Assembly (NCBI RefSeq): GCF_964204645.1
Contig: NC_134027.1
Span: 8,234,485-8,298,484 of the forward strand
From: Tubulanus polymorphus
Lineage: Eukaryota > Nemertea > Palaeonemertea > Tubulaniformes > Tubulanidae
DNA length: 64,000 nt
Direction of reading: 5' to 3'
Shown: piece by piece, positions 1 through 31,466 of the stretch
Layout: the number at the start of each line of letters is the position of its first letter
How positions within the stretch are numbered: the stretch's first letter is position 1
Program-made: the position numbers and the translations under genes
Notes under the pieces: model-generated
The model's database searches: none
The model's input: only the letters and a program-made list of their open reading frames with translations
What the model was told of the DNA's origin: nothing

Positions 1-320
1 AAATCATCTAATACAATTTAAAAGCATACGAGTACCTGGTACATCAAATCAGTTAGCAAGAATTATAGAAAAAATATCAGAAAATCAATGATCAAGCGTT
101 CAAATTGAAGACAGATTGTAAGATGGATATCTATAAAATAATGTCTCAATACCATCCCAGTAATTGGAAAAGCTGCCTTCAACTGGTTATAATATCAAGA
201 TACAAATTTGGTAATTTTGTAAATAAAAAAATCATCACAACGTTAGTTGAATAATTAATTCAATTCATCGTAAAATTAAGTCTAGTGCATAGCACAAACA
301 ATTCCTGCTCATTTTCTTAC

Positions 321-353
321 CATCTCCTTAGACTCTTTACAATAAATTTTAAT
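321..353 (-). other. Possible 33-nt micro-exon of the coiled-coil gene
   Basis: On the minus strand a consensus donor (GTAAGA) lies 33 nt after a plausible acceptor (TTCGTCAG). The stretch reads as 11 open codons (IKIYCKESKEM), phase 0 at both ends, matching the phase of the preceding exon 488-793. It may equally be chance in an AT-rich intron. Otherwise positions 1-487 look like intron. Confidence 0.25.
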
Positions 354-487
354 CTGACGAATAATAAGACATAAACAGGTCAATACAAATTTGCTTCAGC
401 TAATTCACGTTGCCCGAGAGGATTTTTCATAAAAAGCATTGAGAAGATGAAAAAATGAAAATAAAATCCAAATGAAAATCAACGTAC

Positions 488-3400
488 CTCACTTTCTGTT
501 CGATTCAGATCGGATTTTAACGCGTGTACTTCGTCTTGCAGTTGACCGATCACGTCTTTTTGTTCATTATTCGTGCGATCGTGGTCTTCCAGTTCGTGTC
601 TCACACCTTCCAGTTCCTCGGCGAGCATTTCGATATCTTGATGATAACGTGCCACCTCCTCGGCGTGTGATGTCCGCGACAGTTGCAACTCGGATTTCAA
701 CTGATCGATAGTTTTCAGATGGTTTTTAATCTCTTGCAGCGAGATTTGATGATCGTGTTGCAGTTGTTGGATCTTTCGTTCATGACCAGCCACCTGTAAC
801 AAAACAGAAAATTGTAATTTCGACGAAATATTTTCCTTGATATCTTTTTTCGATGACTGCATGTTATAGGCGTCCTCAGTCCTTCTACAAGACCCACAAG
901 GTCATACGTACAAGGAAGGCAGGTTTATCTGCACCATGTCACCTGGAGGCGACACTTTGCGAGCAAGGATTGTAATCATCATTGGACGTATGCACACAAA
1001 ACACAATAACTATTCAAATTGGTGGATGAATATTCATTAAGTAGATATCTCCACAACATCATCAGATGTCGACAGAAGATCTATTCAAGAGCGTTTACCT
1101 GTTCGTCTTTGAGTTCCATCTGAGTGTGGAAAGACCGAAGATCACCTTGTAATTGTTTCACACGTCCATTGAGTCTTTCAACTTCATCTTCTTTGATATT
1201 CACCTTAAATCAAAAGATGATAGATCAACTGACAATGGAGGATTACATAGCATACACAGATTCTACCAATTCAAAATTATCGAAATGTTTTAATGGTATT
1301 CCACTGTACTGCATTTAATGGAATTACCTCTTCTACGCTGCCATTATATTTATATTGCATAGTGTCTAAGTCTGTTCTGAGCTTGATAATATTTTCATCC
1401 CTGTTTGCAACCTAAATCAAAATAATACATCCTAGTTCAATGCAAAAAATGCATGTAATAGACGATGAATTCTGAAAAAGATGACAGCAAATTTCTACCT
1501 CATTTTGACAGGTCCTATGTTTTTCTTTTGATATGGTAAGCTCCATTTCGAGGTCATGACTGGTTTCTTTAAGAATACCCAATTCCTGAGTAACTTTACT
1601 TAATGTAGAATTCATTTGCGAGTTCTCTATCTTCAATCGTTCGATGGTAGATTCATTTTTCAACACCTAATGATAAGAAAATACAGCCCTTAGAGGAACT
1701 GATTCTTGAAGATTTCTGAGACACAACACAGAATGAACATTAGATTCATATGGCTCTTCAGTTCTGCAGTCATTCCTACCTCCCTGAGTCAAATCTAACC
1801 GACCACATGTCAGTAGAGAGAAGACTAACAGGAAGGCTAACAGCCCACATATCTAGCTGTATTCTGGACCCCTGCGTTTTCATCATTTCAACCTATGATA
1901 ACTAATGATTTTCTTCTATCATTTTTAAAGCCAAAGCAAGTGATTCGAACAAGCCAAATGCGCATGACCTTTGCATTATTTTATGCGTTATTACAATTTT
2001 ATGATTGTGGGATGATTAAAAAGCCTCGGAAAATGTGAACAATGTTGACAATGTCTGAGAAGGCGAACCTCTTCGTAACAGGCGGCATATTGAGTCTGTG
2101 ATTCGGTTAAATCTTCCTGCAGATTACGAATAGTATCTTCTCGTTTCGAGATCTGCAAACGAAACAGTGTTAGTTACGTTAAGTTAGCCACTCAACAACA
2201 TGAATACATATCTGAATACAATGGTGCGCAAGGAGTTAGAGTTGGAACTAAGCATAGATCTCTGGGGCAAGTAAAACACAGCTGCAGGGACTTCAAAGCT
2301 CTGGGAACAGTTGCCCAAATGTTTAATCGCAACCAAAATTTGAATAACTCAGAATCAATTTAAGCCATATCATTAGAACGATATTTGAAGAACCTTTGAA
2401 CAACTTTCTCATGAGGTGCTTATTATTCTGCTCCTTTATAATACTTAACTATCTATTTGGCAGATATACAGTGATCAGGTGCTATCATATACGAATTGCC
2501 TGTATCATATTTTGCCAGCATATATGTGTGAAATGTACATGTGTAAAGGATAACAATAAAAAATGGTTCGTTACTTGAAATATTTTGAATATGAACACGA
2601 AACAAACATCCATAACAACTAGTGAGAACATTTAGTACTGAATATTATTTGAATTTCGAACGAGTAACACTGTGTAAGGAAACTTACTGCCATCCTTATC
2701 TTACTCTAAAAGAAAATGGCTTATATTTGAACATATAATTTCATATACCGGTAGGTATTCGATAGTGCAAATGAAGGCTTCTTTCGAATTCAAGTGGCAC
2801 ACGGATAAATTTATGAAAAACAACATGAATTTTTGTTCGAATGAGCAAGACACTGAGAATTTTGAAAAGCATGTTGCGATGACAGTATATTGTATCGTAC
2901 CGCACGACAATACTACAATCACGTACATTACCAGAAACAATTTGAATGCAAATTCGTGAAAAAAAATTGAAAATTTTTCTTGTGAAATTCTTCCTACGAG
3001 TATCATAGTCTATATATTTTCATTTTGACATATCTCTAGTTAAGTGCATTGAATCATGATTAGAAATAAATGTAAATTAATACATGACGCCAATGATTGA
3101 TTATAAAACATCAGTTTGATGCGATGAGGTGATTATGGTTGTAGAATTATTAGTTCATTCAGCTGATTAAAGAGGGCAGCATAATTACTCACGTCGTCAT
3201 CTGCCTGTGTTCGTAATTCATCAATGTCATTTTGACCTTGAGCGAGGGCATCTTGTAACCGACGCACGGTCTCCGACTGCCTCTGAATCTGAAATTCATC
3301 GAAACCAAAATTCAGGGCCAGTTCAATAGATAGACTTCAACCCAACGACTTAATTCAAATATCATTTGATATGTTCCTGGTTTTAAGACAAAATTTCTCA

Positions 3401-6400
3401 TTTTCGGCGAGAATTTCGGTGAACAACAGGATTTTAATATAAGCACTTCAAACTCATATCAAGGCAACAATAAAATGCCAAAATACGATAACCTATTGTG
3501 CATGTTGACATCGATGAAGATGAAAATCTTCGAATTCAAAAATGTTTTCTACCTCTTGCGATTTTTCTTGACTGCGTTGTCGAACTTTCGTCAATTCTTC
3601 GGTCAGCTTACGCAGCATATCGTCTCGTTGAACGATCTTAGTCGCGACTTCGCGTTGCTGTTTCTTCATGAGATCGATATCGCTTCGGAGTTGTGACACC
3701 ACTTCATCTTTAATATCGCTCTGTGAGGAAAGTGTGAAAATCCAAAATGAACTAGCGTGCCGATTTTCTTGGAAAGATACCTCGCTTTCGTTGCGCAACT
3801 TACGTTATGTTGAAGACTATCGTTCTGAGCCTGAGCTTCGTTCAGTTCCATATTCATATCCCTGATTTGTCCCTCCAACTGAGCGACGGTCTCGATTTGT
3901 GCAGCAGTTCGATCTCGAGACTCGGCTATTTGTCCCTCGAGATTTTTCAGGGCTTCCGTTTTCGCTTCGATTTCAGCAGTCTTCGATCGGATGGTAAGAT
4001 TTTGTTGGTCGATCGTTCGCTCTTGTTGCGAAACCTAGAATGAAATCGATAACTAAATAACAACAGTCAGCAAAACGAAAGCAAAGCGAAACGAAAGGAA
4101 CAAATGTGTTAACCTTGTTACGTACCTTCTCTTCAGCTTTACTCAAATGTTCTTGTACATTGATCTGATCCATTTTCAATTTATGTATCATGTCTTCTCG
4201 CCTTTGCACCTTAAATGAAAATGTATATTCAAAACTAGGCTAATGTTTTAGCATTATCACCATTAGTGATGATTTCCCACAGAACACACCAAATAAACCT
4301 GGGTTGCATTTTGAGCTATGCTGCGAGGGGAACCGGGCTTATCCATGAATAAGACGAGTTGCTCAAAAAATTGTATCCATTCATAAAGCATTCCAGATTG
4401 AAATTAAAGCTCCCAATGCATTTCACCTCCCTCTAAGGAATCTTGATGCAGCCTAAATGGAAGTGTGACTGAGCATTCGTGATGATGTGCTCAAAGAATT
4501 AACAATAGATAATTAATCATTCAACCTTAATTGTATAATTATCAATGCAATTAGCAGTACTGTTTGACCTGATCATTAGCTCAATTAAAGCCTAGAATTT
4601 AGTTCTATTGGAGGTGTCTTACAAACCTCGCCTGTGAGCACGTCTTGCTCGCTTTGCGCATTGATAGCAAATGCTTGGATACGCGATTCGAGTCGGCCAT
4701 TTTCCTCGAGAGATTCTTTGTAGTGCGCTTTACATAGGTCCAGATCGTTCTCCGCCTGGTGCAAAGTGATTTCCCTGCGCGATAACTACAACAAAATATG
4801 AAGAGAGTTGTTAAGCTCATGGCACGTATAAAATTTGGCTTCAAATGTTCCTCGTTTTAAGACGAAACATTTCATTGGAAGAGAAATTTTCGGTGAACAA
4901 CAAGGAATTTAATATTCGCACTTTAAACTCATATCAAAGCAACTACACACTGCCATGATACGATAACCTATTGTGCATAATACGGTTAACTATCTATTAT
5001 CAATTGAATATGATTAAGAATGTTCCTCGTTTCAAGACGAAATGTCCCAGATGAAATGAGAATTTCGGTGAACAACAGGAATTGAATATTTGCACTTTTA
5101 TTTCATATCAAAGCAACTCGAAAATGCTATGATACAATTACAAATTGTGCAAATCATTACGCATTATACGATAATAAGACCCTCACTTCGTCTTTGAGAT
5201 GCCTATTCTCGTCCTGTAGAGCTTGGATTTCTCCATCGAGCTGTGAAATATTCGCCTCTCGGCGGGCTAGGTTTTGCTGGTCATCTCGTTGTTGATTACG
5301 CAGACGTTCAATCAGTTCTTCCTTGGCAGCAATCTGCGAATAAAATGTAAGATTTAAAGATAGTTCTATCGTGCAGATTGCCATTGAAGTATGGAACGAA
5401 TTAACTGAAGAAAATTAATTGACTTCAAATCACTTCAGGGTCCTGGCATTCTGATAAACAACACATGTATGAAGGACAATTGTGTTTACCTTTATCGTAA
5501 AATATCTCCACCAATACCCATCCTTAGAAATATCCCGAGAGACAAGAGGCCAAGGAAATGTACCTTCCATCTAATATTAATCCTTTAAATCTATGTGTCA
5601 TATATGTAACCAGCCATTAAACTATTAACCACGAGGCCTTATGTACAAGTAACTCAGTAGTACTGCTTCAACATGACCAGATTAAACCCTCAGTTGAATA
5701 TTCTTATTGTCTAGGAATATAGACAATTACAGTGTAAGACAGCAAACTGTGACACTACATGCGTTAACTGCCCAAATTGCCTCATAAACCCTACAATCAA
5801 ATAGCTTGCTATAGACGCATGCGTTATATATATGACTATAAAAGCCAATAGTGAACATAGTCGTTAACAGACACTAGCCAGCACACATCAGGACATGGCT
5901 GACCAATTAATTAAACACTATATAAATACACCCACATGCTCTTTGCATTCATTCATAAACAACTATCTATGCTCAAGAATGATAATTGTCATAACGCAAT
6001 ATCTTGACATTGTCGTAAGTTCATTGAGTTATGAAAGTAAACCTATTTCACTGAGCAATAAAATAATAAGCATGCCTTTAATGCAAGTGCCAACTGGGAC
6101 TTTCAGATTTTCAGATTTTCAGTAATATTTCAGAAAAATTTCAAACAGTGAAAAGCTTATGTTGTAATTAGATGATGAGGTTGTTGGCTTATGTGAAAGA
6201 TGTTTTGGTATAATCTAATTCATAAAACTGAAAATATCTGACCTGCACTTGAACATTTTCGAGTTTTTCCTGAAGAATTGTTAAATCAGTGCTCAGTTTG
6301 TTGACGGTTTCTTGAAGTTCGGCTATTTCTGTTTTGTATATAGTTTCCTGTTGACTCATTGTTATCTCTTTCTCTTGGAGCGAAGTTTGCAGATGATCAA

Positions 6401-9400
6401 TCTAAAGCATATGCAAACAAAAAATGGCTTATACTTTCATAAAAGGCAGCATTCATCGAAGAATGAATATGACAATTTTCTAACAAGCAGGAAAATTAAG
6501 GGAAAACCTCAAGCAAAACAAAACCTTTTGCTAACAAAAGAACATACACTAAAAACGGAAAGAAATTTATAAGTCTAAAGTAACATGGACCCTGTTCATC
6601 AATTGGGGTCAAATCTGACTGGTGGAACTAAAATTTCCACCCAAAACTATTGAACTGGGGTCATATGCTGAATGCTACTCACAGAATAATCTTCCTGTTC
6701 GTAATTGCAAACAAATAAACATATCTATGACATGCTTTATCTAAGCCGAGCAAATCCTAATAGAATGGATCTAAGAAAATCTAGGTGCTTATATTTACCT
6801 CTCGTACTTGATTCTGGAATTTTCCGCTCACCCCGATCAAATCTCGTTCGTTCTGAGCCAGTTTTTCATAGTATTCGTGTAACTAAGGGGAAGGAAACAC
6901 AGATGGAGATGATACAAGGGAAGGAGGAACATATGGATTGTGCAAGGCAGGGGGACCCATTCTTAAAATCAAGATTGCGGTTTTATGAAAACATTTCCAT
7001 GGGGCAAGATTTGCCAATGGAATAACATCTTCAAGCGCAAGTTTGGCAAAATAAATCTGCTTCTAGCTCTAATCCTGAGACTACAGAACTGGTGGTAATC
7101 ATCATAGATTGATTTTATAGAAAATTGATTGAAAGATGGCAGCACGAACAAACTGACTTCAAAACACAGATATGGAGCGAGTTCATAAAAGAAAATCATT
7201 GATTGGTTCTAGCGAATAGCAGAATCGCGACGCAAGTGACTACAATAATTTATACGATTGATTTCGCGGTCTGATTTTTCAGGCTAAGATTTCACTCCAA
7301 TCCGATGATTTACTGCTAATAATCATAACCATGTCTAAACATTACAATCAATTATTCACAGCCCACAATCGTTCAAACACTGAATTAAACTATGCATCAA
7401 TTTAAAGCTGGATTCATTTCCATGAATTCAAGGGCGGAAGGAACGAGTAAGGATGTACAGTTCGTTTTTAGCGCACATGAATACCTTATTATTTGATTGT
7501 TTTAATTCTTCGCGCAGTTGTTTGATGACCTCTCCACGATGCTGAGCTGTCGTTAGTGCTTCATTGTGTTTCTCCTCCAGCGATTTACAATCAGATTTCA
7601 ATTTTACCATTTGATCGTGGCGTTCAGCAACCTGTTCGTCAGAAAAAATTCTAATTATTCAGAGTGAAAAATGTCATTTGAAAGTGTAATACATGCCACA
7701 ACACTATTGTCATTATAACCACCCTTAGAAATTTAAGTCAATTGAAATAAACGAGACCATGCCATATTATTAGCCATATTATTAGTTTACGAGACTCACT
7801 TCATTAGTTAACGCATCGCGGGTATCTTTAGAGGATGACTGCAATTTCTGTAAACTGTCTGTTAGTTTCTGAACCTAATTGTTAAACAGTTAAAAACAAT
7901 CGTAAAGCTTTAAAATTCAAGCCATAATTTAAGTTCTACGAAGCATTATCAATTTATACAAATTGCTGTATTAATCAGTTGTTTTCATTCATATATTCTT
8001 GATGGGTAGAAAAATTTTCCACTGAGGGTTAAATTCAAACCATTATTTAACCAGTAGGCTATATCATGAATTTTTGTATATGCTTATTACTAATACGCAG
8101 ATCAATAGTTCAAATTGAGTATGTACTAGAACAGCAAAGTGGCTTTTGACTTGTGTGTCACCATATTTCGTAATGATTATAAATAAATGACTGTTCCATC
8201 TATTCTATAACACATTTAAAACTAGTATACGTTGTCTGAAGGAGTATAATAACAGTCCAGCAATTATATCTATTATTCAAGCAAGTATCACGAAATCTAA
8301 ATAAAGATGCATAATACTGTATTCATCTATATTATGTACTGTAAACAATATAGCCGATTCAGAATGTACCTCATACCTGAGTGACAGCAGCAATTTGGGC
8401 GGCTTTTATAGAATCGTAATCCTCCTTTAACCGTGCGAAATCTTGCTGATGAGATTTAGCCTAGTATTATAGAATATTATTATAACTACAGTAGTACGAA
8501 ATGGTTACTTGTATCCCCAACAGTTTTCCAATACAAACTAAACCACCCAATGAAAGATGACTATTAGAAAGAGTTTTGACTAGCCAGCTAAAATCTAATT
8601 GTTTTAGTTTAGGTATCTATTTAGTGCAAATATTGTTGTTAATTTTGAAGCAAGGATTTATCAGTGCATCGATAAACTATGCTATATACCTCGGCACGCG
8701 TTTCTTCGAGTTGCCGCTTATTGGTTTCAAATTCTGCCTCGAGGTGGCGTGCTTTGATTTCAGAAGTACCGAGCTGAAATAAGAATACGTACGGTGTTAC
8801 AACGCTTGATAATAACAATACGAAATGTCTTTCGAAGTTTTCATTAAAACCGAATCATTAAAAAAGCTTTCCAAGATAAAGTTTGAAAGATGCAAGCATG
8901 AAAACACTTCATTTCATAAAAACTGAAAGTGAATAAGATAAGACAAGATATAAAATACATCTAAGGCTCATAGATAAAGCATTCTAGACAAAGTATAAGA
9001 ATTTATAGCATAATCTAATATGAATATAATGAACTACTCAACTACTTATATATTTGAATAGGTAAAGGCGTAGGTGTATTAGCTAATGGTTGTCAATAGG
9101 AGTCATCAAACAATAGGCAATGATTAGAAAATATATACAGTGTATCATGTATCATGGTTTATGTATGTATAGCTATACGTATTTTTCATAACGATATTCA
9201 ACCTGAAATTCATAAGTGCATTTCAACGCATGGTACAACTTCGATAAAAATTCCTTAATTCGATGCAACTAAAGCTCGTTTAAAATGAGTCTGAACTGAT
9301 TTAGCGGGAAACGTCATCAGAGCTGTACCATATTGACTGTTATCTTCGATAATGTAAGGTTAAAGGCCATCTCAATTTTTCGAAAATATGCAGAATCATC

Positions 9401-12400
9401 CCAAAAGTGTTGAAATCTATTTGTAGTTACGGATTTTAATAAACTTGAGATGGCCTTCAATGCAGGTATTATTGTATTGTTACGGCGGTGCAACTTGCTA
9501 TATTTTCTGCCACCAGGTGGTGCTCACCTCCTCTGCCACGCGTTTTCGTTCAGTTTCGAGAACATGCATTCGATTAGCTCGTTTGTCCAACTGAATCGAG
9601 TTGAAAATTCCCAAAGTAAGTAAGATGTGTTAGCGAAAGACACCGGGGAAAGTTAAAACGCACAACAAAACAAACACATGAGTGTAGTCCCACCCATGTA
9701 TGAAACCATATTCCCATGTACTATCGTATGGTACCATATGTAAGGTTATTCAGATACACATACATTTTAGAAATTCACCCATATTCTGTATAATGAATTA
9801 AAACATCAAACTGACATAGCTAGCCCATGGAAGAGCAAACAGGATGTATATACACCAAGGGCTTACCCCGTACTCCAACTGGTTATGAACAGGTACGGTT
9901 AGATACTAAGAAAGAGAATGCAGCCGCATCAGTTTCGTAGATTATATTCATTCAAAACAAGAATAGATTATGAGAAACACGAAGAATTCACCGAACCATG
10001 AAAATCTGTTGACCAGATTTGAAAGTTATTTAGTCAGTAGTTTGAGAAAAAAAAACATGAAATTGCCACCAATTTGATGAACCACAGTAAATGTTATCAG
10101 TGCCTGTTCTTTAGAACATCATGCCAGGTGATAGGACAAGAGGACATTATATTTAGTATGCATTAAATATAAAACAAAACCCTGACACTTGTATATATAG
10201 ATTGATACACATCAGTGACCAGGTCTATTCACTGAACTACAAATCCAGATATAGGAACGAAGTGCATTGGATTAACGCAAATACGCATGCAAATCATTGA
10301 CCCTGAATTTGTAAGGAAATCATAAATTCATACTATGAGTATATACGTTTTATTTACCTCTTTTGTGTAAGCATCACGTTTTTCCTGTAATTTCAGAATA
10401 TCTCGTCGTAGACCGGCTATCGTTTCATCGCGTCGTACCAGTTCCGACTTGAGTATCTCGCGGTGGTCTTGCGTCGATACTTGACTTTCACGAAGTTTCG
10501 ACTGGACATTCGATAACTGCATAAAAAGAGACATAGTCTAATTACATGTATTTCATAACCCAATGAAATATAGCTTTGTTCAAGCCCAGCCACAACCGAA
10601 TCAGGTTGACTGAAACTCGTTCTATTCCTTACCTCATCATTTGTTCGTTTCTTTGAATCCGCAGTTTCCTGAAGTTCTCCTTCCAGCATACGAATCTTAC
10701 GCTCATATTGAGTCACCTGAAATAAGAAATAAATTCGAAACAAAAATTACCAATCATATCAAGATTCAATGTTTCATAAGTTCCCTGAAATGAATATTGC
10801 TCAGCAACTGATAAAAAGACCACAGGGTTTTTACAGATCAGCTTATCCATTTCCCTGACCCCAGACCAAAATTCCCAGAATAATAAGATATGTTTCTGGT
10901 TCATAAGGTTCCTTGTGCCACTTGTCACCAGCAAGAACAACAAAGATACTGAATTCCCTGACTTTTCCATGATATATGCAGGGAAAAATAAATCTGAAAT
11001 CCCCTGATTTTCACCGATTTATATGAGACCAGCAAGACACCCTGAGACCAGCAAGAATAACTGCTTAACTTTGTGTTTATCCATTATTCTAAAATTCAAT
11101 CTACCTACAAAATGCTTAACAATATTGAAATGACGTTTCACAAATTCTTGATCCTTTCGGGACCCCCATCATTTAGAACAGTCTGTAGACTTGGGAGTGT
11201 TCTCTCAATAAATTACATTTTGTTCTATATTGTATGTACACCACGAATATTCATTCATTCACTCACGAAATACTTACTGTTTTCATAAGAATCAGAAAAT
11301 GACAGGCATTTCCGAAAACATAAGCCCAATCCCCCAAACCTAATCCATTCGACATATCTACATTGTGGGTTCGATGATTTCATACATTTCCCAAAATTTC
11401 CGCCGACACAACAAATCGACGTACAAACATGGTACAACAGATAAATCCATGTTTACGATCACATCATCGCATTATTCGTATTCCTTATTTGACTTTTTTT
11501 TTAACATCGCACAATATGATGATTATCTTGATAAGCCTAACACACTAACGATGACTTAAATGTTAATCCTTGCCATTGAAAATTTTGTAAAACTATCGAA
11601 TGTTGAATACTCCTTGGTGTAACGTGTCCAGAATATCAGCTGATTAAACGCATTGTTATATTATATGTAGCCAGAACTTTGGCAAATGCGTATAGCAGAC
11701 AATATAGATGTCTATAAACGATCCGGGCTGTTGTTCACACATTGGCTGATCGAAAATTCAAGTCGTTATTCGTACAACCATACCATCCATCAACTCAAGC
11801 ATTGATATCACGACACACAGTCACAGCCCGTTATCCCAACTGCAAACCGATAAATTATTCAGCCACAACTCACATTCACATTGAAATTTCGCCCAGGAAT
11901 TTTCAAATTAAGACTTCGATCATTTTCTCGACCCGACACTGTAGCGTCTGCCTCGTCGCTACCTAGTTTCAACGCTAATAACACACAATGTCTCTAATCA
12001 ATACATATATTCATACGTACATGTACATATATCGGTAATATCCTATATCTATTATCAGTTATTGGTCACGATATTTTTATCACAGTCATCAAAACATTCA
12101 CTATAACACTATATATAACACTATATATCCACTGATAATGTCATCGCTCTTATAATTTCACAGTCAGTCAGTTCCTATCCATAAGCACATCTGCAATTCC
12201 AGGGCGTTATTTTTCGCACCGAAGACACATGTCGGCTGGCACGTTTTGTCGGAATGATTTTTTGTATTATTCGCCGATCTATTATCATATCCACTACTCG
12301 TTTAATTTCCATAGCTGAAACATTGTACTAGCGGTGTCAGTGTCTAAAGCCATAGGAGCCAGTCACTATGACAACTATGGCACAGATGTTCTTCATGTAT

Positions 12401-15400
12401 TACAACAGTATTATAGAAAATATCTGAGAATTCACCCTGATTGACTGTCTACACGTGACTATATTGAACTATAAGAGAGCATTTCGCTATATTCACGTAA
12501 TAACAACAACAGCAATACATATTCAATCCTAAGTCGCCTGAAGACACTTCCGAAGTTCGACGTTTCTCAAATAAAAATTAACTCTAATCCTGCCGGTACA
12601 ACAAGCTTTCTGCTCGAGTGAAGGGCACCACCGGGCTACTTAATACACATAACCGCCACCAGCGGATTTGATATCTACATTGACAGAAAATTTCTCATGC
12701 TGAAATGCACCAATGGATATCCGTGTTCAAAAGAGAACAACATTTTCTAAAAGAGTACTCGAAAAATAAAAATAACCTCTTCAATTTACTCGCGATTTGG
12801 AGGGCTTTTTCGATAGCTACACCGAAATCAAAATCAATTAGTCTCTAATTAAAAAGTCAACATGGGGTGGCTTTTAGGCGCATTTTGTAAACATTAACAA
12901 CTTTCGCGATGTTCAAAACTGGCCATACTCAAAAACTTTGTCAGCTCAAGTTTAATTAAAAAGCTGATAGGGGGTCCATTTTTACTAGTTTATAAACTTA
13001 ATTATATTTTGAGAGAACACTCTTGACGCATCCGCTCACATAGCACTGTGCAAAGTTCAAATGCAATTAGCGCAGAAAATAGGCCACCCGCCCAAAAATA
13101 TAAAGGAATTTCTCTTTTCCTATTTCATCTATACAAGATTGAGGGTCTTGCAAGGGGTCAGGGGAAAATTATGATTTTATTAATTCAAGTAACCCCATAT
13201 CATACAGAAAGTGATAATCGAGTAAGAAACCAACTTTCTCTAGCAACTATCATCAGTTGATGATGAATGCTGCGCAAAGTACGCCGAGTTCCCCGCACAT
13301 GAGAACGTACTTTCCTTTGCGTCGAAAAATATCTAACTGGTTAGAATGGCACTTGGCAAAGTGCATTGGAAAAATCACCCGCACACGAGCCAGCAACTGC
13401 ATTGCGCACTTTGCGTCGACATTATTCAGCTCATGTGTGGAGGCCTTTAGACAATGAACAATATTTGTTCCACCCAGGGATGATTCAATGAGACAGATCC
13501 CCTCAATTCGCAAAGCAGTTTGCAGTTTTTCAGACATAACATTTTCCAGCTGCAATGGAACCCAACGTTTTACTACAGCTGTGACATGATTTATCGCTAT
13601 AGTAACAAGACCAGGCCACGGCATGTCGCTCCAATGCCCACCCAGAGACAGGCACCATGTTTGGTATCATATTACAATGTCAACGGCCAGGTTCAATCCA
13701 ACACTCAGCATATTTAATCGTGAAAAGAAAGCAGGTTTCTATTCTATCCCTTACTATTCAAATAATATACCCAATGCCCACCGTCTATCAGAAAAGTACA
13801 ATTGAGTGTTTAGATTTCGACTATACCTGCCACTATCATTACCCGCAGCTCTGAATAGATAATCGAACGCTACTACAATACGGGAAAGAGTTTTCGTGAT
13901 TGAATAGCCCATCAAATTGAGCCTACTCGTTAAACATTAATTTCAGTATTACCGATACAGTTGATTAGGCAAACACATAAAAGCATAAAGTATTAATGAA
14001 CATTCACTGGAAAATCACGAAACGGCTCACTTAACGGAAAATATTTGCTACTTGTTTCAAAATGTTATATATATTTATATACGTCCAGGACTGTTTCACG
14101 CGTCTGCCAAAAATATGACAAGTCCATCGAAATTTCAACTTGACTAATCATTTTTTCTCGAGACATGTAAACAAACTGGTCTACAAAGAATTTTATCAAC
14201 GTGAAACATGACAGTAATTTCTTGTCATGTCGAATGTCTATCTTAAAAAAGATCTTCGCAAAAATTTGAACAGCCGTGTCAAGTTTCACGTACACTGCAG
14301 CCAAGTCGTCGTTATTGTCGTAATTTCGCTATGCAAGTCTAGTTAGGATTAATCGCAATATTATCGATCTGAGATATAAGTGGTTTAACCAGTTATTATA
14401 TAATGGACTGACTCGTAAAGATAGCAACGATTCTAAATCAAATGCGTCGACATTAATTCGAGATCATTTTTTAGTTGAACTCATCCCTGGTATGGATATA
14501 TGTATGTTCCTTCTTTTCTTTGAATCGCAAGGCTCTTTTTTTGTCAAACACGACCAAATGACTAGCTTAGGCTATTCTTTACTTGTTATACCAGGGTCTT
14601 ACGGGTTTCCCAATTTCATTTTACATACCTTTTCCATACCCAGATTATAGATTTTGTGTTTTCATAAAGTTTGTTATTAAATGTGTAGTATGACATTTAG
14701 ACATATAGCCTAAAATTCAAAATAGGAGAAATTCTATTTCAAAACCACTTTCAAATTTTTCTATAGCCATAGTGAAAAAAAACCTATATTTCCATAGCTT
14801 TTCCAGGGCCTGTAAAAACGATTCCTATATTCCAAAACTTTACAAGACTTTCCAAAACCCATAAGAACCCTGTTGTACTTATTATTATTTGATTGCCTTT
14901 GTCACGTAGGAAACTACTAGTTTATAACCATATCATAATCACAAATTATCTAGTGCAGACAGGTCAAAGTTGTGTTCATACTCATTGAAAGTAAAACCCA
15001 AGAGCAGGCTTATCATTAATGATAAATCAAAAACTCACATTTTGACCAACGCGAAGATTCTCGTCTTTCGAATCTGACAGTTCTTGTTTCAAGCGGCGGA
15101 TAGCGTCTTCGCAGCGTGAAATCTTAAAAATTCCATCATAACATTTATATTGAAATCACACCGACTATTGGACCTCGGAGTTTACAAGACAATCATCTAT
15201 ATCGAGTAAATGCTAAAATGTCAACACTCATGAACAAGACGGCTTAGGGCTTTGACAATAACTATCATCATAATAGAGGTGGCCAAAGTTTTTGGTAAGC
15301 CAGGTAAGGGCTAAGGGGCAGCGATTTAAACCATTTTACTCTGCTGCTAAGTTGCACAATTATCTACTTTTCATGATTTATTTGCAAGATTTACTTTTGA

Positions 15401-18400
15401 AAACGCCTTCAAATTTTTAACATTATCAATTGTCAAAATCTAGCACCAGACAGTGCTGCCTTCTACACTTACAACGCGCATGTAATGCACTTAAATCATT
15501 TTGAAAAAAATTTCCCTTAGGATTTGATCATTATTTAGAACCAAACAACGATTGCTGATTTGAAAGAATTTTCATAATGAACATGTCCAGTACTTCAGGG
15601 CTAGTGATAAACGTTGCGCTTAAGCGGCTGAAAAGATGTAATTTTTGTGAATTTGGACATTTTGATAAACTAGTTTTTTCCTCCAATGAGCATTTAGCAT
15701 AAAAATTCACGCATACACTTTACAGCAACTGGTTGAATATTCTTATTAGATTTTGAGACGTCAGTCACATGTTTTATAACTGGATCAAAATTTTTGTTAG
15801 GTATGCAAGATTTACTAGTATAATGAATACATTTTATCATAAGATTAGAAACATATAGTAACTATCATGAACGATAGCCAAAACCTCACAGTATCAAAAG
15901 GTATCATTTGTGTATCGATCATAAACATTAATCAAATGCTTTGACAGATTATTTATATAATGGACTGTGATCGTGCACACACACATTAACACAGCGTGGT
16001 GGTAATGGGCTTGATAGAAACGCTATTAATAAGGCAATGGTCATTCAAATCATACGCCATCTATCAGCGACACTGAAATACTATTCTTAAATCTGATCGG
16101 TTTGTACATTCTGACTAAGATGAATTAACTTAATTTGATTTTCTGAAAAATGTAGTGACAATATTTTCATGTGGAGACTATGACAATAAGCTGATTAATC
16201 CCGATTTAACTCACCTCCATAGCTTGATGTCGCAGTTTATCTTGTAGGAGTTTAATGCCTTGAACCTGGTTATTATTCTCGGCATCTTTCATCGACAATT
16301 CGCTGTGGAGATCGGTAATCTGTATCTGCATGGCAGAAATCTTGCGATCGCGATTTTGCAACTGTTAAAACGAAACAAGTACACAACATCGAGATACGCC
16401 CCTCGAATAGAGATCATTTTAGCCCAAAATTAATGACACACATTACGTACTTCCAGCGCGAACTCCTCACAGCGTTGTCGTGCCATTTCCAAATCCGACC
16501 GCAGTTTGAACAGATTTATTTCTTTGTCAGTGATTTCTGCCGAGCCGAGCTGCTCCCGATGATGAGCGGTAGCCAGGTCATGGCGGACGGTACCCAGAGC
16601 CGTGTCTTTCACATTTAACTGAAATTCACAAAGCCTCTAAGATCAGCATTCATCTACAGGCTTTTGATGCAGCCAGCAACAAATAGCTTTTCGTAAATAG
16701 TCTTTATATAGGGCCTATGTTATAATGTCTTACCTGATCCATTGAGCTTACGTGTTCATTCGTAAGTTGACGTACATCACCCTGTAATTTCTCGATAAAT
16801 TCATCTCGTTTTTGTAGCTGACTCTTCAAGTCGTGGATGTGCTGTTCAAATATCTGCTCTGTTGGTTTACTGAAACATAAAACAAGATTGTTTCTATTGA
16901 AGACTTACTGAACTTACGGAATACTTCAGTTCAATACATCAAGTACGAAATTTAATTGCTTATTACTATGGTAAGATAAACACTACACAGAAAAGTGTGA
17001 CCTATCAGACTTACGTTTTAGCGAGTTCCTCTAATGGACCGAAAACTTGCTCAAAAGATATAGATCTAAATTGTACATTGTCAATCTGTAAATAGTTAAC
17101 GTTGAAAATCATGATAGAAGAATTATGCACAAAACATGATGGAGCATAATTCAATGCCATTCTTCGAATTGCTTTAAGACACACGATAATGGCCTTTAAT
17201 AATAGGTAACATGTGTCAACTCACCTCCCAACTACCAGAGGTACGAGCACAACTAACAACTGTAATCAACGTATTGACGTCATGCTTAAGGCGAGAGTTG
17301 TGTTCGCGCAGTTCAGAGTTCTCTTCATCGAGTAAATTACATTTGTCTTCCAGGTCCTAGAGTTGAAATAAATCAACAAACATTTAGTATATGGCTATAT
17401 TTGTCAAAAACTGGGCTCCAAAGACACACGCCTACTCAGTGAAATAGGCCTACATGTTGACCCTCTAATGAACAAATCTGAGTGCATCATGAGCTACAAT
17501 TTTGCAATCAATTGAAATTACAAAATTGGAATCAATATGGAAATACCACATGTAATTGTGCTATCAAACATTACCAAACCTCCCCCCACAATATCCCCCT
17601 GGTGAACATATACAGAAAGTATGATCGAGCATGTCAGAATTCAAGCCAAAATAACATTTTTGGGCAGAAAAAGGTCACATGATGACCATCTTGTATTCTG
17701 ATCGACCAAATCTTTCAGCCATCTAGATTTTGATTGGGCCAGTTAGGGTTATGCCTGAGGAGTGGGCTAAAATAATGTTGTTACAATGGTGATTAAGGTT
17801 ATCAGCTCTGGGGAATTAAAGATGTTCAGGACATGTAAATGAAAGTAAAAGAAAGCAATGTAACTAGTTTTTTTGGAACTCCCCAATTAACGACCCTTTC
17901 TCATGGTAATCATGGTAGTAACTTGTATTTAATGCTACGAGTAAAAACTTAATAAATAACCGCCTAAATAACCGCCATCTATATAACTACCCCTGATGGG
18001 CAAATACATTTACGACATATTCAACGCAGGCCTGTTTTAAGACTACGCATTCTTCACCCTGTGTTGTTATTCCCATTATGAACCCAATGGTGGCACATTG
18101 TCTCGTAGTGAATTAAAGAATTATATATTACGCTATGAGACTTCGCTATACACAGGCACGCAACAGGAAAGAAGAGCATGTTAAAGAAAGATTTTACGTT
18201 CTAAACTTTGCGTGGTTGTGTAACCCAGTTTCTTTTTTCAACGTTATTTTCCGTGGCTAATGTATCAAATTCTAGCACCGGTTATTCCGATCTAACCTGT
18301 ATGACGCTGGTGGCGTTAGCGTTCTCATGCGCGAGCGTTCGCATTTCGTGTTCGTAATCTTTCGTCTTCGACATGTAATCCTGTAATGCAAAACAGTCGC

Positions 18401-21400
18401 TGGTTAGAAACCCTACATTGTTACAAATGAAACAGTCAACCAAACAAGAATAGGAACAGACAGGAACGGATAAGAGAGAGTACTAATTGCTTTTCATAAA
18501 GGGTGGGGCGTTGATTTCGAAATAGCTACAACCAACTAGACAAACCGACGCGACTCATGCAAGATATCAATTTCAAGAATCATTTCAAATTTCTGAAGCC
18601 CTCTTTACATGAAATCAATAATTTTCAGTTTCAGATCACATTTGTATTTCAAGACTAGGTGAAGTATTTATACTAATACAATCATCTTCTGTTTCATCAG
18701 AAAGCTAACTAGCAGAAGGCATATGAAAGGCGAATTTTTTAAACTCTCAACCGCATTAGAATAATACATTTCAATAGCATTAGGCTATATACACCCATTT
18801 ATTTTAGCTATTGAGAAATAAATAGCCCAGGATTATATAATAAGGAATTTTCAGCTCCTTTAAAGGCCTAGATAGAATATCATAAGCCTAACATAATAAA
18901 GAAGAGATCTAAACCATGAAAATAGGTGAACCAAAATCTAAAACATACATTAACAAACAATCCTTCTAACACTGATATCCACTAGACCATACTTAATCCT
19001 GAGGACATTTCTTTCATCATTAACTATAAACCATACGATGCATAACTAAGGGTCTTGATATATGCAAGAAAATACCAGGAGTCGTTAAAGAAATTGCAAA
19101 CAGAAGTTGATTAAGTGCCATCCATTTGAGAATTAAAAACGCAAACAAATTCAGTAAACACAATAATGCTAAACGACAATTTCGTTGCCGTTCTACAGTA
19201 AAACCAGTGGCAATAGAATATACACATGTTTATCAAGTCAAGAGATATCTACACCTCCATTAAAGTGTTTCATCAAATATTAATCACCTTTTGATTGCCT
19301 GCCTAAATATATACACGAGCTTTTAAAAGTCAAAATGAGTGTAAACGAATGAGCGGACTGCATAGAACAGCAGAATGAAATAGCACTGGACAGATATGGC
19401 TGCTTCTGGAAGAAGTGGTGATTCACGCTTTAAGAATATGTATATTTATTTTCACCTTGACAGAAGTTCCTGTTTTTTGTAGCTTGTTTTCGAGCAACGT
19501 CACTCGTTCATTCGCCTCCCGTTCCAACTCTTCGACCGTTTGCACCAATACTTCATTTTGTTCGCTCAAATCGTTCACGTACGACTGAAGAATCTTGGAA
19601 CGCAGCTGAAATGATATAAAAGATTTGAAATGAAAGTTTTCGAATGATTTAAGTCAGTGTACATATAAACTATGACTGGGTCCATCCCTGAAGTAAAACT
19701 GTCATTACAGTTGAGCAAGATAGGAACGGAGTACTGACAATAATACTGTGGCAAGCAAGGATTCTGAGTGGCACTGGGTTCTTACCATGCCTTGAATTCT
19801 TACGTATTTCAATTTTTCTCATTTGTAAACAATTTTTTATAAAACATTACCACATGAGCTATACTATTAGTGAGGTGTGAAGGTGAATATTTCCCTATTC
19901 AATGACTTAAGGCCAATAAGATAATTTTTGTTTTTGTGAGGCTAAAAATCAATTTCAAATTTCATCAAAAATGAACGGATTTTCACTTGAACGACCCAGC
20001 ATGGCGCCACCTGGTAAGTACAGGTACCCATTAACGAAATCGCTGAATTCCATATTGGAAGCATTTTAAGAAATCTACATACTTAATACATTCGCAGTCA
20101 AACAAACAGCGTCACCGTATTATGATTTCTATAACGGCCTCGAATAAAAAAAGACAATTTCACTTTCGTGTTATGATAGTCTATTGAGAACTGGTTGGCC
20201 TATCTATTGTACAAAACGAACCGATATCAACCGAATTCAACAGGTCTTTATTTTTTAATCCAAACATGTTTAAGTAATTCACACACAGTCGACTCCCCTA
20301 AATATGATATCGAAAGCAATCGAGGGACTTTCAGTCATATTCAGCCGAGATGCTTTTTTAAAATAAAGTCAAAATGGATTGACAGCTCCCGATGTAAGGA
20401 CCACATTTTCAAACTTCAAACAAAGCAATACATAATAGATGAAAAGCTTTTAAATACTATGCAAGTCACTGAAATGTACACAGCCGCAATAATTCACACA
20501 CTTCGAAATGAGATGAATTCGAAACTACTCATTAGTGAACAAAGGCACTCAAAAAACGTACAGTTGACCCGCATAATGCATGGTCTTATCTCTGAATGCC
20601 ACGAGTAGGGAATGAGAAGGATTAGAGAAAAAATGATTAATCGAGAATAAATCCATACCAACTCAGAAAGAGAGTAACGCGGTATACTAATTTACCTTGA
20701 CTCCGGATGAAAACCCGGCTTGGATCTTTACTTTCAATTATAAATCAATATGATTGGAAATAAATGCTTCGCTATTAGTAGTTAAATGCACTTGCTGCAT
20801 GTAGGTAAATCATATTGGACATGAAGGTGTTCTAAATATAACGGCCGATCTTATTCATGCCTAAATTAAATCCGTGTTACATCAGTCTCATCAACAAGTT
20901 TATTAGGAAATCATTTCAAATGGTGCTTTATTCATACAATAATGAAGTTTTAATCAAACTTTTCCAATTTCCTCTCGAGTTGATCGGTGGCATTGAGCTG
21001 AGGCATATGACATTGACAAAATTCATAAAGATTTCTACTATAGGGCCTTAAAATTACCATGTAACATATACTATGTTTCATCTTTTTGATGATAAAATTA
21101 CGTCTACTGAACCAAAGCCCAGTTAGACTTAGCCCAACCATATGTGCCGATTAGAGTTTTTTTTATACAATGCATGCAGCGTGTACAAACGGAGACCATT
21201 TATTATCTATTGACATAAGGTTGTAAGTTAGTTTTTTTTTTTACAGACTGCGACATGCATGAGCGCATCTATAATGACAAATCTATTAGGCCTAATACAG
21301 TCATATCGAGCAATACAATTCTCTCTCTTCAGAGCAATGAGTGTATTATTAAAGGCAGAAGGCTTAGTGGTAATAAAAGATTAATGTCCTCAGCATTTAT

Positions 21401-22390
21401 TAGATTGTAAACCACCAGAAATAATAATTGCAATGTTTTTTCCCAATAGCGAAAAAGGTCTTGTTAACAAACACCGAGTGTTTTCAGAATTCATTAAGCT
21501 AGCCAAGTACAAAAAATATTAGGGGCCTACGTATCTGGGCCAATCAAATGAGACACCTAACAATATTTTCATACCTACATTTTCTTTTACATTGATTATG
21601 GTTAGTTCTACTAAAATGGTTTATCACTTAATTAGTTCCAATATCAAAACAATAAAGATTATCATTGAAAAATTTTCAGTTGGAATGCGCTCATAGAAAC
21701 AAGTAAATATGGATTTGAATGTTCATACTAATCTAAATGAAGGCCCATTGTATAAGGTATTCAATGTAAATATAGCGAGCTTCTCTTTATATGACCAGCC
21801 CATTTAGGATTTAATGCTAATGCAAACATTTTGACCACACTACTGGTATTTGTCTTTACGGACGCATGACAATATGACAAGACATGCCAATAGAACATCC
21901 AGGACCAATTAACAAATTACTGGCCTATCAGGTTCTCAAGAAGATTCAAACTAAAAGTTTGTTGACATAAATTTCTATACATGAAAGGAATGAATGATGC
22001 ATAGTATCATGCGAGAACACGTCCCTTGTGTGAAGAGGTCAGTTTTTGAATTAATAACAATAATAAGACAAAACTAATAAGCAAAGCAAGCACACAACCA
22101 CTTGGTTCACCCCGCTCAAAAAGTACCCAGCTTGACAAGGAATAGCCCAGTCACATCAATGAAAACATACAATAATATCAATGTCTAATGTAACCTACCC
22201 TGAGAGTTTCTTCGGTACTTTTCTCAGACTCATCCAGTTTCTTCAATCTTGCTTCGTATAAGTTCCTAAACTCGTCTAACAAACCGTGCATGCCGTGAGT
22301 ACGAGAGGCAATAGTACCGCCGCCGGGCGCCGTAGTTTCTCCACATCTACGAGGCGATGGAGACCTCATAGCAGCGTGTCTGCCAGCCAT
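488..22390 (-). CDS. Long coiled-coil protein, 29 visible exons, 3' end off the left edge
   Basis: Minus-strand gene starting at the ATG 22388-22390. Exons: 22199-22390, 19456-19605, 18297-18380, 17225-17356, 17015-17085, 16734-16869, 16451-16618, 16215-16361, 15039-15122, 10633-10716, 10358-10516, 9528-9590, 8690-8773, 8377-8460, 7800-7874, 7485-7631, 6799-6882, 6243-6401, 5187-5333, 4627-4785, 4126-4209, 3804-4034, 3553-3720, 3193-3288, 2069-2152, 1499-1666, 1328-1411, 1099-1203, 488-793. All have GT/AG borders and join into one open frame of about 1,245 residues. The first ~60 residues are Ser/Pro/Arg/Gly-rich; nearly all the rest is charged heptad-repeat coiled coil, with a short non-helical stretch (about residues 170-215) containing VSCARTSGSWE. 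No signal peptide, membrane segment or enzyme motif is seen. Every intron is phase 0 except the one between 17015-17085 and 16734-16869. I do not recognise the orthologue. Long coils of this kind are typical of centrosomal, ciliary or sperm-tail proteins, but that is inference. Confidence 0.85.
1753..1886 (+). repeat. Dispersed repeat family R1, copy 1
   Basis: This copy shares a ~130-bp core (starting near CAGTTCTGCAGTCATTCC and ending near CTGGACCCCTGCG) with copies at 44188-44317, 46635-46820 and 47336-47520. All are in the same orientation. It sits in an intron of the coiled-coil gene. Confidence 0.75.
3371..3504 (+). repeat. Intronic ~135-bp repeat family R2, copy 1
   Basis: It begins ATGTTCCTGGTTTTAAGAC, contains GAATTTCGGTGAACAACAGG and ends near CCTATTGTGCAT. 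It is closely similar to 4845-4979 and 5019-5150, all within introns of the coiled-coil gene. Confidence 0.7.
4845..4979 (+). repeat. Repeat family R2, copy 2
   Basis: Same order of blocks as the copy at 3371: ATGTTCCTCGTTTTAAGACG, then TTTCGGTGAACAACAAGG, then CATATCAAAGCAACTA, then ACCTATTGTGCATAA. It lies in the intron between exons 4627-4785 and 5187-5333. Confidence 0.7.
5019..5150 (+). repeat. Repeat family R2, copy 3
   Basis: A more diverged copy placed about 40 bp after copy 2 in the same intron, so copies 2 and 3 form a direct tandem pair. It shares ATGTTCCTCGTTTCAAGACG and GAATTTCGGTGAACAACAGG with the others. Confidence 0.65.
10717..15038. other. 4.3-kb intron of the coiled-coil gene
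   Basis: This is the largest intron of the gene. It is AT-rich with no exon that fits frame and splice signals. It holds one unusual patch, a 123-codon open frame on the minus strand at 13253-13624 with higher GC than its surroundings, which I cannot assign. Confidence 0.6.
19606..22198. other. First intron of the coiled-coil gene
   Basis: AT-rich intron between the first coding exon and exon 2. A 137-codon plus-strand open frame at 20195-20608 looks like chance, with no family resemblance. No repeat or RNA gene was seen. Confidence 0.6.
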
Positions 22391-22610: not shown

Positions 22611-23551
22611 TATTTACAAACAAGAAGGTACCGGATTAATCCTAACCAGTAGCGATATGACCTTACGCACACGGATTAGGCTAACGGACTCGGGACTAAT
22701 GTACGGCCTTATCCTCCCTAAGTCTTTTCTTTCCTTCGACTATTTTCTTTTCATCTTACCTGAAGGCGTGATCGAAAATATATAATCTTCTCTTTAGAAA
22801 ATCTATCATACATCAATACATGTAGTTCAGTTTCAGACTAAAAGACTAAGTCAAACTACTAGAGGGAAAGAGTCCTCCGATGTTCCAACTAAAAGAAAAG
22901 AAACAAGTACCTGGTAGTTTTTTACAAACCATTTTCTTTATTTTCACGCTTACAAAAAAGTTTTCTCACACTCACACAAACATAATCAAATAAATTAATG
23001 CCACACTAGCAAAATATTTAAAAAATCTTGAAGTAAATCATTTCTAATCTTGATTATTGAGTTTAAATTGACCTGCATCTGGTATATCCTAAATAATTAG
23101 GTGCACAGTTTTATAAGAGGTTCAACACGAATATGTCGTTTCATTAGAGTAAAAACAGGGACTTTTCATCTTAGAAATTCTGGATTAAATGAAAATGCTT
23201 TAAAAATCACAGGTGCGGTGTACAACAGGTTTCATGGCTATCAGATAAGATGACATTGATTTAAACTTAATTACATAAAATATATAGAATTGAACTTGCA
23301 GTGAATGATCAGAATTTTAAAACAAATTTACAATAGTGTAGAAGTTTGTTATCACCATTGGATAACTTCATCGCAATAGACTTAGAAAATACAACATTCA
23401 CCAAAAATCACAAAGAATTAAATCAGTTCTTAAGAAAACTATCAATTTCTAAGTATGAAAAAGAATTCTTCAAATACATTCACTAATTCTCATTGTTTCA
23501 CACAATATTCGCTCTTGTTTAACAAAAGATCTAATTCGTACACGTAAAATT
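22611..23551. other. Intergenic region between the coiled-coil gene and NOMO
   Basis: AT-rich sequence holding the upstream flank of the coiled-coil gene and the 3' flank of NOMO. I see no further gene, RNA or mobile element in it. Confidence 0.5.
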
Positions 23552-23557
23552 TTTATT
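23552..23557 (-). terminator. Poly(A) signal AATAAA of NOMO
   Basis: AATAAA on the minus strand, about 20 nt past the NOMO stop codon. It would give a very short 3' UTR, so a more distal signal may be used instead. Confidence 0.4.
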
Positions 23558-23577
23558 CATCTAGCATTTGACCGAAT

Positions 23578-26500
23578 TCAAGTCTTCCGAACGCGGATCT
23601 TTTTCTTCGGGCCGAATTCAGCTTCGATGAATTCGTCGTCGAGGACAGGAATGGGAGCCGGAGCCATCGCTGACGCTCCAGCTCGTGATACTATTCCACT
23701 GATGCCTACTCCAGCTTGATGAAGGAATGGTAAAAGCTGTAAATGTAAAACACCATCATAATTTATTAGCCAATTTTGAAAACGTTATGATTGTGGTGGA
23801 CAGTTAATCTTGGATTTTACAAGTGTTAGTAATTTTACTGTCAAGCCTTAAGTGTTAAATTGTATCAACAACCAGGACCCTTTTCTACAATTCTGAATTA
23901 CCCTGATGATAAACAAAAATACTTGTTATCATGGGCATCTGTGGATACACACTATGACTGAGATGAATTTGTTTATATTTACCTTTTGATAATGGTAGGA
24001 TAGGAGAATGACTAGACCCGCAACTGGCAATATCATGAACGAGCCTTGATTTAGTTCTTGTTCAGTACTCTTGGGCTAATAAAACGAAGAAGTGCCTTTC
24101 AATATACATATCTCATCAAGTATTCATCAAGTCTGATTAATCAATTCAGATTCATTCTTTTTATTTACCTTAGGAGTGAAATGTAATACGAAATGTTTGA
24201 ATGAGGTATTCGCCGTAAAGCTGACTTCTGGTAATGAATAGTCATATCCTTGTTTCGACATGCCACTCTCCAGTCTAACGAAATAGCGCTGTAATGAATT
24301 AAATTATATGTGAGATTCATTTTATCACTGAAAAGTGAGGAAAAAAAGAAGACGTGAAAGCCGTCATTCACCTTGCCATCTTGAGGAATCGTCGGTAAAT
24401 AAAACATCGGTGAAACGCCCATCGTTAGTGTGTGTATCGGAGAATCAGGGTTATCCTCTCTGAACAAAACCACCTTAAGTATATATTACAATCGCATGAA
24501 ATAAATGAATAGAAATACAAACCGATGATCGCAAACTACACATTTACCTTCAAACCCGGCAGATTCTTCTGATCACCGACGATTCGTCCACTGAGATCCA
24601 ACTGATTCAATCGTCGGAACGCGATGATATTCACATTCATCTTGTCCGATTTCTCAACCTGTTTAAGGAGAAGGAACTCAGTCAATCAAAATGAATCAGT
24701 AGTTATGAGCCATGAGGTTTGGATTTGACTGTATTCTGTGTCTGCTCTTGAATTTTGGAATGTACAACCAATTCAGTAAATACTTCACCTGTATATGAAT
24801 TGACTTCGGAGCTGCTCTTTCTATGTGTTCATTGCTTTCACCTGCTTTCAATCTGATCTCGTATTTGCAGTTTGGCTAAATATAAACATAAAATACATCA
24901 AATGTTTCACCCCAATCGTAGTTGGTTAGCAGAATTTAGTTGAAACACCAACCTGTAATCCTCTTATTCTGTAAGAGCCATCCTTCTCTGTTTTACTTTC
25001 TTCCTGATAAACTGAACATGTCTCGCCCTGACCGACTGCCTCAACCATCACCCCGGGTTCGGGTTCACCGTTCAATGAACTTACTAATCCAAAACAACTA
25101 AAAAACACCGAAAACATCAGCCATTTCATAATATATAGAAAGTCTAAGACCAGTTTTTGGTTTAATAAATCTGCAGATCAGATGTACCTGTATGCAACTC
25201 GTTTTCCGGTGACTTCAAGTGACACGGTTGAACCTTCTTTCACCTCAATCATCTTTGATGATGGTTCGAAATTATACTCTTTCATCATTGGTCGAAGGAA
25301 AAATTGACCAGGACTCTACAATTATAAAAACAACATGCAACATTTAACACTTTTGTTGCCTGCATATTTTTGCCTGCGAAATGTAATTTTCTGTCTGGAC
25401 TTATCCTTTTTAAGCTGAAACAAGATTCTAAGAATCTTACCAGATTTACAAAGACCATCGAACCATTTTCATGCGTGAGATTGTTGCTCCTGTACTGAGA
25501 TCCTCCACTAAGAGACAATAAAACTCCACCTAATGCTTTCTTATCCTCATCAACAACCTTCACATCAATCTGTCCCAATTTGAAAGCTTTGAAATGTCCC
25601 AATTTTCCATCGATCTCAGTCATTATGTAGCCATCCTTTTTAGCAGTAACAAAGTACTTTGTGTCATCATGAAGCGGACCAACGCTGAACGAAGCAAAAT
25701 CTAATTTTCAACTGATCCCTTCAATATGAAGTCGAGTAAATACACAATTCAATGTCAAGTTACCTGTATTTTCCTTTCGCATCAGAAACAGTGGTCATCA
25801 CTTCTGATCGTAATTCAGACACAATCTTTATGTCAACACCAGCTAGAGGTGGCTGTATTTTTCCGTTGATGAACAATCCCCGTCTGCCGTCTAATTTCAC
25901 CAGCTCGCCGGGGCAGGCTTCTTAAATGAAGGGAAAAGCATTTAATTAAGTTATCTAAGTATCTCAATACTGAACTGATGGGTCAATTATCATATCACAC
26001 ACATTCATACCTCCTTTGACCGTCATTTCAGCCTGTGGTGGATAGAAAAGAAGCTCTTTTGATGAAGGCGTGAACGTCAATTTCTCACCAGTTCTGCAAT
26101 GGTAATTTGATATCTTCAATCGGATGCCATTATGAACAGACTTAGTTCAATTGAAAATAATTGAGATAAAAACAATATCAATGAGGATTCTGTTGACATG
26201 TTCAAACTATTACGGCTCAGAATACCCAATACGCTATTCATCATACGATTCAATCAAAACCGTCAAATCTGCTGCAGTAACAGCAGAGAGATTTGTCATG
26301 CATTCAGCGTATTTTAAGATTAATCATCAGAGCAAAATACCTTGAATTGACAACAATTCACATATCGGTAATATACTGAAGACATAATCACTTACTTGGC
26401 AATAGTGACGAATCTGTAGACGTACGGTCCATCTGGGTAAGGTTTATTGTCTTTTCCAAGCTTGGAAGGTGGCTCTTCAAATATTTCCAGTGGTCCGATT

Positions 26501-31322: not shown

Positions 31323-31466
31323 TTTGAACAATTCTGATGCGGCATTAAACGAATATCCGGTGGGGACTGCTCCGACAACTTCCGGGTTGTCACTAATTCC
31401 CGGACACCACCGCGGACTCAGGCCAGCCTTCAATCAGCTGTGAATGCGGATGAGTGCACATTCAAT
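31323..31466. promoter_or_regulatory. Bidirectional promoter shared by NOMO and CIAO2B
   Basis: The start codons of NOMO (minus) and CIAO2B (plus) are 144 bp apart and point away from each other. The interval is richer in GC than its flanks and has an ETS/GABP-type ACTTCCGG at 31378-31385. No TATA box is obvious, as is common for divergent housekeeping promoters. Confidence 0.75.

Follow-up and report, generated by a model that had tools for sequence, protein, structure and literature searches.

Why should the exons of a gene for a long coiled coil be cut to the length of the structural repeat that they encode? The question is raised by a gene on the minus strand of a 64,000-nucleotide stretch of Tubulanus polymorphus contig NC_134027.1 (the window), whose start codon lies at 22388-22390. 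An earlier note on this DNA had listed 29 coding exons, many of them exact multiples of one heptad (21 nt), and had suggested that the protein grew by duplication of exons in heptad register.

We predicted exons with a semi-Markov splice model that combines coil-like codon log-odds with donor and acceptor matrices, is blind to coil register, and has no length term. The exon finder was run from the start codon at 22390 through the window and a further 20 kb of contig to its left, with a minimum exon length of 40 nt in the final run; under this minimum the small exons of a first-pass model disappeared or were corrected. The complete gene is predicted to have 49 exons, including one doubtful 171-nt call (13379-13549) that we excluded from all counts for its non-coiled-coil composition (0.18 bits/codon, against a core mean of 0.58). 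The predicted stop lies at window position about -10412 (contig near 8224072), 10.4 kb beyond the window's left edge. To the left of the window lie another 19 exons, 11 of which belong to the quantised block described below; the window had shown about 60% of the exons. After the doubtful exon is dropped, the predicted protein has 2,320 residues, and the locus most likely encodes a mostly alpha-helical coiled-coil rod protein of about that length; this reading of the gene model belongs to an overall explanation that we consider probable. Coordinates are given in Table 1.

Table 1. Predicted exons and intronic repeats of the coiled-coil gene (window positions; negative positions lie left of the window)
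Feature	Position	Strand	Length and remarks
Exon 1	22199..22390	-	192 nt; N-terminal nonquantised part
Exon 2	19456..19605	-	150 nt
Exon 3	18297..18380	-	84 nt; outside quantised block
Exon 4	17225..17356	-	132 nt
Exon 5	17015..17085	-	71 nt; followed by the window's only non-phase-0 junction
Exon 6	16734..16869	-	136 nt
Exon 7	16451..16618	-	168 nt = 2 units; quantised block starts here
Exon 8	16215..16361	-	147 nt = 28+21 residues
Exon 9	15039..15122	-	84 nt = 1 unit
Doubtful 171-nt call	13379..13549	-	inside 4.3-kb intron
Exon 11	10633..10716	-	84 nt
Exon 12	10358..10516	-	159 nt = 25+28 residues (7n+4, stutter)
Exon 13	9528..9590	-	63 nt = 21 residues (unit minus one heptad)
Exon 14	8690..8773	-	84 nt
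Exon 15	8377..8460	-	84 nt
Exon 16	7800..7874	-	75 nt = 25 residues (stutter)
Exon 17	7485..7631	-	147 nt
Exon 18	6799..6882	-	84 nt
Exon 19	6243..6401	-	159 nt = 25+28 residues (stutter)
Exon 20	5187..5333	-	147 nt = 21+28 residues
Exon 21	4627..4785	-	159 nt = 28+25 residues (stutter)
Exon 22	4126..4209	-	84 nt
Exon 23	3804..4034	-	231 nt
Exon 24	3553..3720	-	168 nt
Exon 25	3193..3288	-	96 nt = 32 residues (stutter)
Exon 26	2069..2152	-	84 nt
Exon 27	1499..1666	-	168 nt
Exon 28	1328..1411	-	84 nt
Exon 29	1099..1203	-	105 nt = 35 residues
Exon 30	488..793	-	306 nt = 102 residues (7n+4); 120-bp direct repeat on both sides
Intron 30	1..487	-	crosses window's left edge
19 exons left of window	-349..-10412 (contig 8224072-8234135)	-	exon finder
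First 11 of these			quantised; 231, 231, 84, 168, 243, 168, 336, 420, 168, 84, 168 nt
Last 8 of these			nonquantised, end of gene; 173, 42, 94, 71, 280, 51, 93, 123 nt
120-bp direct repeat	872..991 and -140..-21		94% identical; brackets exon 30
145-bp intronic repeat	3358-3502, 4833-4977, 5007-5151		three copies, 75-82% identical

Elsewhere in the window, a multi-exon gene on the minus strand (23500-32000) contains an exon for a carboxypeptidase-regulatory-like beta-sandwich (28828-29046) and is probably a NOMO-like ER protein; a second minus-strand gene (33200-37355), with ankyrin and armadillo repeats, is probably ANKAR-like. A single-exon rhodopsin-family GPCR of 363 residues (7tm_1) lies at 61268-62359, and an open frame of 482 residues without a Pfam match at 53081-54529.

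The 29 window exons of the earlier note were reproduced by the independent splice model once the 171-nt call was set aside. Eighteen of them are multiples of 21 nt, with the lengths listed previously (nine of 84 nt, three each of 147 and 168, and one each of 63, 105, and 231), and every border but the junction after exon 5 is phase 0. The chance of finding at least 18 such multiples among 29 exons at a rate of 1/7 is P = 4e-9. In the complete gene, the regular lengths form a block of 34 consecutive predicted exons (nos. 7-41 without the doubtful call), all of them phase 0. Lengths modulo 21 leave a remainder of 0 in 27 of the 34 (P about 3e-17 at 1/7) and of 12 in the other seven, a class that we defined post hoc, after viewing the lengths; no other remainder occurs. 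The six block exons in the window that are not multiples of 21 (159, 75, 159, 159, 96, and 306 nt) all fall into this class, so the exons that appeared not to fit are quantised too.

A remainder of 12 nt corresponds to four residues; at 7n+4 residues, these exons differ from whole heptads by a classic coiled-coil stutter. As in all core exons, their a and d positions are hydrophobic whether the heptad is anchored at the start or at the end of the exon, which is as expected if a single frame shift lies inside each such exon. The exons before and after the block are coil-rich, yet they are nonquantised and carry all four non-phase-0 junctions of the gene; these ends therefore serve as an internal control for the block.

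The earlier note had taken the heptad as the quantum. Lengths are indeed quantised, but the true quantum is a unit of 28 residues (84 nt, four heptads), with occasional loss of a heptad or a stutter, rather than the single heptad. Multiples of 84 nt account for 19 of the 34 core exons, and 84n-21 or 84n-9 describes most of the rest. When the 27 heptad-multiple exons are sorted modulo 84, the classes 0, 21, 42, and 63 hold 19, 1, 0, and 7 exons, respectively, an excess of 84-multiples with P about 9e-7. The rod sequence has autocorrelation peaks at lags 28 (0.142), 56 (0.137), and 84 (0.136), compared with 0.105 at lag 7 and a baseline of 0.078. A leave-one-out 28-column profile anchored at exon starts scores a mean of 8.8 at in-phase internal positions of multi-unit exons, and -5.4, -10.3, and -7.6 at offsets of 7, 14, and 21. 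In the 53-residue exons, either the second unit starts at residue 25 or the last unit is 25 residues long. Every junction falls at one phase of the 28-residue repeat, and the repeat runs on inside the long exons.

In the unit consensus, positions 1, 8, 11, and 15 are large and hydrophobic, positions 5, 14, and 28 acidic, and those around 7-12 basic. Exons start at position 1 and finish at position 28; junctions fall between heptad positions g and a (g/a). The first residue is a large hydrophobic one in 30 of 34 core exons, compared with 27 of the 56 phase-0 exons in the control genes (P 1e-4). Core exons end in the codon GAG in 21/34 cases and in NAG in 27/34. At internal unit ends without an intron, GAA is commoner and the residues are mostly Glu, Gln, or Lys. 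GAG as the last codon of an exon also suits a splice donor.

Could such regularity be an ordinary trait of long coiled-coil genes, or be produced by the exon caller? GAG and AAG before hydrophobic codons are favoured in coiled coils, which would make splice-like sites periodic with the heptad. We applied the same exon finder to seven other coiled-coil genes of the genome: a muscle-type and a nonmuscle-type myosin, a third myosin-like gene, rootletin, CCDC158, and two unnamed genes. These have 87 coil exons, of which 39 are symmetric, and only three of the 39 are multiples of 21 (Fisher 2.6e-10 for the core block against the controls). This is the comparison with other coiled-coil genes that the earlier note had proposed, and the fraction divisible by 21 does exceed theirs. 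The calls are also stable over most settings: All 34 core exons are unchanged at intron penalties of 8-20 with trained matrices, and 30-33 of the 34 are identical with generic matrices. A competing same-frame splice site lies within 2 bits in nine of the 34; for exon 21, the first-pass model chose an alternative acceptor 30 nt further in. Together with the absence of a length term, the independent arrival at the same window exons in the first reading of the sequence, and the nonquantised coil-rich ends of the gene itself, these results make either form of this explanation hardly credible. The evidence supports quantisation as specific to this gene among the genes sampled in the same genome.

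In the two myosins, the 28-residue repeat is equally strong (lag-28 autocorrelation of 0.154 each), whereas exon lengths are not quantised and junction phases are mixed. A 28-residue repeat is therefore not enough by itself to account for the exon structure.

These observations are best fitted by a scenario that we think probable from the pattern in the sequence: A 28-residue unit bounded by introns was duplicated repeatedly, with intron loss and register-preserving indels to follow. An ancestral 84-nt exon would have been duplicated many times together with its intron, each element of the array, or small group of elements, making up its own phase-0 exon with g/a junctions. Later loss of some introns would have given exons of 168, 336, and 420 nt, and indels would have been tolerated only where the coil continued through them (one heptad, or a stutter of -3/+4 residues). 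The resulting rod could gain or lose whole exons with frame and coil intact.

The order of events may instead have been the reverse, with the 28-residue repeat arising first, in intronless DNA or under selection on a filament-forming rod, and introns inserted later. The favoured site of insertion would be a Glu, Gln, or Lys codon at position g (GAG/CAG/AAG) followed by Val, Ile, or Leu at position a, which resembles a proto-splice site. The exon ends described above suit such a site, as do the intron-free unit junctions with their Glu, Gln, and Lys residues, and g/a is the commonest heptad location of phase-0 NAG sites when the junctions themselves are counted. However, candidate sites are many. 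There are 189 MAG/R sites in the rod coding sequence, of which five are junctions, and 196 phase-0 NAG sites, of which 26 are junctions and about one third are at g/a. Inside exons, the phase-0 NAG sites at e/f (46) outnumber those at g/a (40), yet no intron is of the e/f type. Independent insertion would have required 34 hits on one position among many, and in this genome's myosin rods, where the repeat is as strong, junction phases and exon lengths are mixed. The restriction of introns to g/a and to one 28-residue phase, despite many candidate sites, favours duplication over independent insertion, and we regard late insertion as unlikely.

Similarity between exons does not exceed that of column-shuffled units for any pair, adjacent exons are no closer than distant ones, and a self-BLASTP of the protein did not find internal homology. 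Since the exon pairs share nothing beyond the pattern, duplication, if real, is too old for identity to persist, or the units may have come to one repeat consensus by convergence. Among the introns, no decayed unit clearly stands out (the best score is 5.7, where one shuffle gave 2.6 and real units have a median of 22.6). The single 28-residue phase and single junction position argue for growth by exon duplication; the similarity of the exons to one another does not.

Intragenic copying does happen in the introns of this gene, although the two repeats involved are not exon copies. The 120-bp direct repeat around exon 30 has no further copies in the genome beyond the two; recombination between them would delete or duplicate this exon. 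A genome search found the 145-bp repeat confined to introns of the coiled-coil gene. Its copies are too similar for the neighbouring, unrelated exons to have been copied along with them, and we therefore do not count this repeat as evidence of duplication.

The central rod comprises 1,757 residues without a single proline, about 260 nm if fully helical. AlphaFold models the 140 residues of exon 38 as one unbroken helix of 138 residues (pLDDT 96.2), and the 102 residues of stutter exon 30 as one unbroken helix of 100 residues (pLDDT 96.7, best model). The product we infer is a long coiled coil, a spacer or filament protein, which accepts length changes in register-preserving steps alone and whose rod would dimerise. 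From the consensus, Glu at both g28 and e5 would leave no obvious favourable g-e' pair for a parallel homodimer. The charge periodicity of the rod has no clear power at 28/3 residues, the period behind the staggered filaments of myosin II-type rods, and net charge peaks near 14 residues (stutters left in).

The earlier note had also observed that such exons could be skipped or duplicated without loss of frame or register, and had proposed that splicing might tune coil length; the first point would hold for most core exons, and all junctions are in coil register. Selection for alternative splicing might have kept the exons symmetric, the core exons being cassettes that set rod length per cell. 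Skipping would leave an intact coil, since every one of the 34 core exons is phase 0 and nearly every one is register-neutral, and a precedent exists in titin, where spring length is set through PEVK exon inclusion (PMC6300359). Against this, most splice sites of the predicted gene score as ordinary strong ones, and an origin by duplication yields exon symmetry too, without any alternative splicing. We consider selection for splicing improbable as the source of the pattern. We suggest, tentatively and as a possibility only, that the gene is a coiled-coil counterpart of a collagen gene, which evolves, and perhaps varies its isoform length, in intron-bounded 28-residue quanta (about 4.2 nm). If true, the gene would provide a molecular ruler that can be adjusted genetically, one whose only further allowed steps are whole heptads and stutters.

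Searches with the N- and C-terminal segments of the gene returned nothing above cut-off in Pfam or PDB, and no paralogue was found in its own genome. The locus is absent from the matches of a genome search with Myosin_tail_1 (PF01576), a search run at E up to 1 that weak matches may escape. The rootletin profile (PF15035) matches other contigs and the CCDC158 profile (PF15921) one other contig only, neither at this locus. Rootletin, CCDC158, and other ciliary or centrosomal coiled coils are likewise long rods with representatives elsewhere in this genome, but the exons of rootletin and CCDC158 are nonquantised here. In the open literature, as far as our partial coverage extends, we found no prior report of heptad-quantised exons, or of a rod split in this way with stutters as the sole other remainder.

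Correspondence between exons and repeats is classic for collagen and for some globular repeats; in coiled coils the repeat spans just seven residues and a register error is costly. Fibrillar collagen genes have 54-nt exons encoding Gly-X-Y triplets, thought to derive from a duplicated ancestral exon. The coiled-coil gene resembles them in exon lengths quantised by a structural repeat, in symmetric phase-0 exons, and in multiples that look like fused units; a single intron phase (34/34 phase 0) and a single repeat position are found here as well. As regards exon homology, the exons share a 28-column profile, with pair identity no higher than the column-shuffled null. Unlike collagen, with its triple helix, the product here is a coiled coil, the quantum of 84 nt has -21 and stutter (-9/+12) variants, and unit identity has been lost.

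The rods of myosin II and paramyosin have a 28-residue, four-heptad repeat with skip residues (PMC11335295). They share with this gene the supra-heptad repeat, the long helix, and occasional register discontinuities, which are 7n+4 and whole-heptad changes here and single skip residues in myosin; the myosin rod exons of the same genome are neither quantised nor uniformly phased. The titin PEVK exon array, from which 47 exons encoding 1,586 residues have been deleted (PMC6300359), is likewise made up of numerous short in-frame exons that each encode one length module of a long protein, and is a possible model for length tuning by exon inclusion, although it is an entropic spring and not a coil, and its alternative splicing is documented. 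The architecture works like the exon-repeat design of collagen, transferred to a coiled coil whose 28-residue repeat resembles that of myosin. Its exon lengths are a natural record of the length changes that a coiled coil tolerates, namely whole 28-residue units, a heptad, or +4/-3 residues, and the setting of rod length by exon number becomes a directly testable idea.
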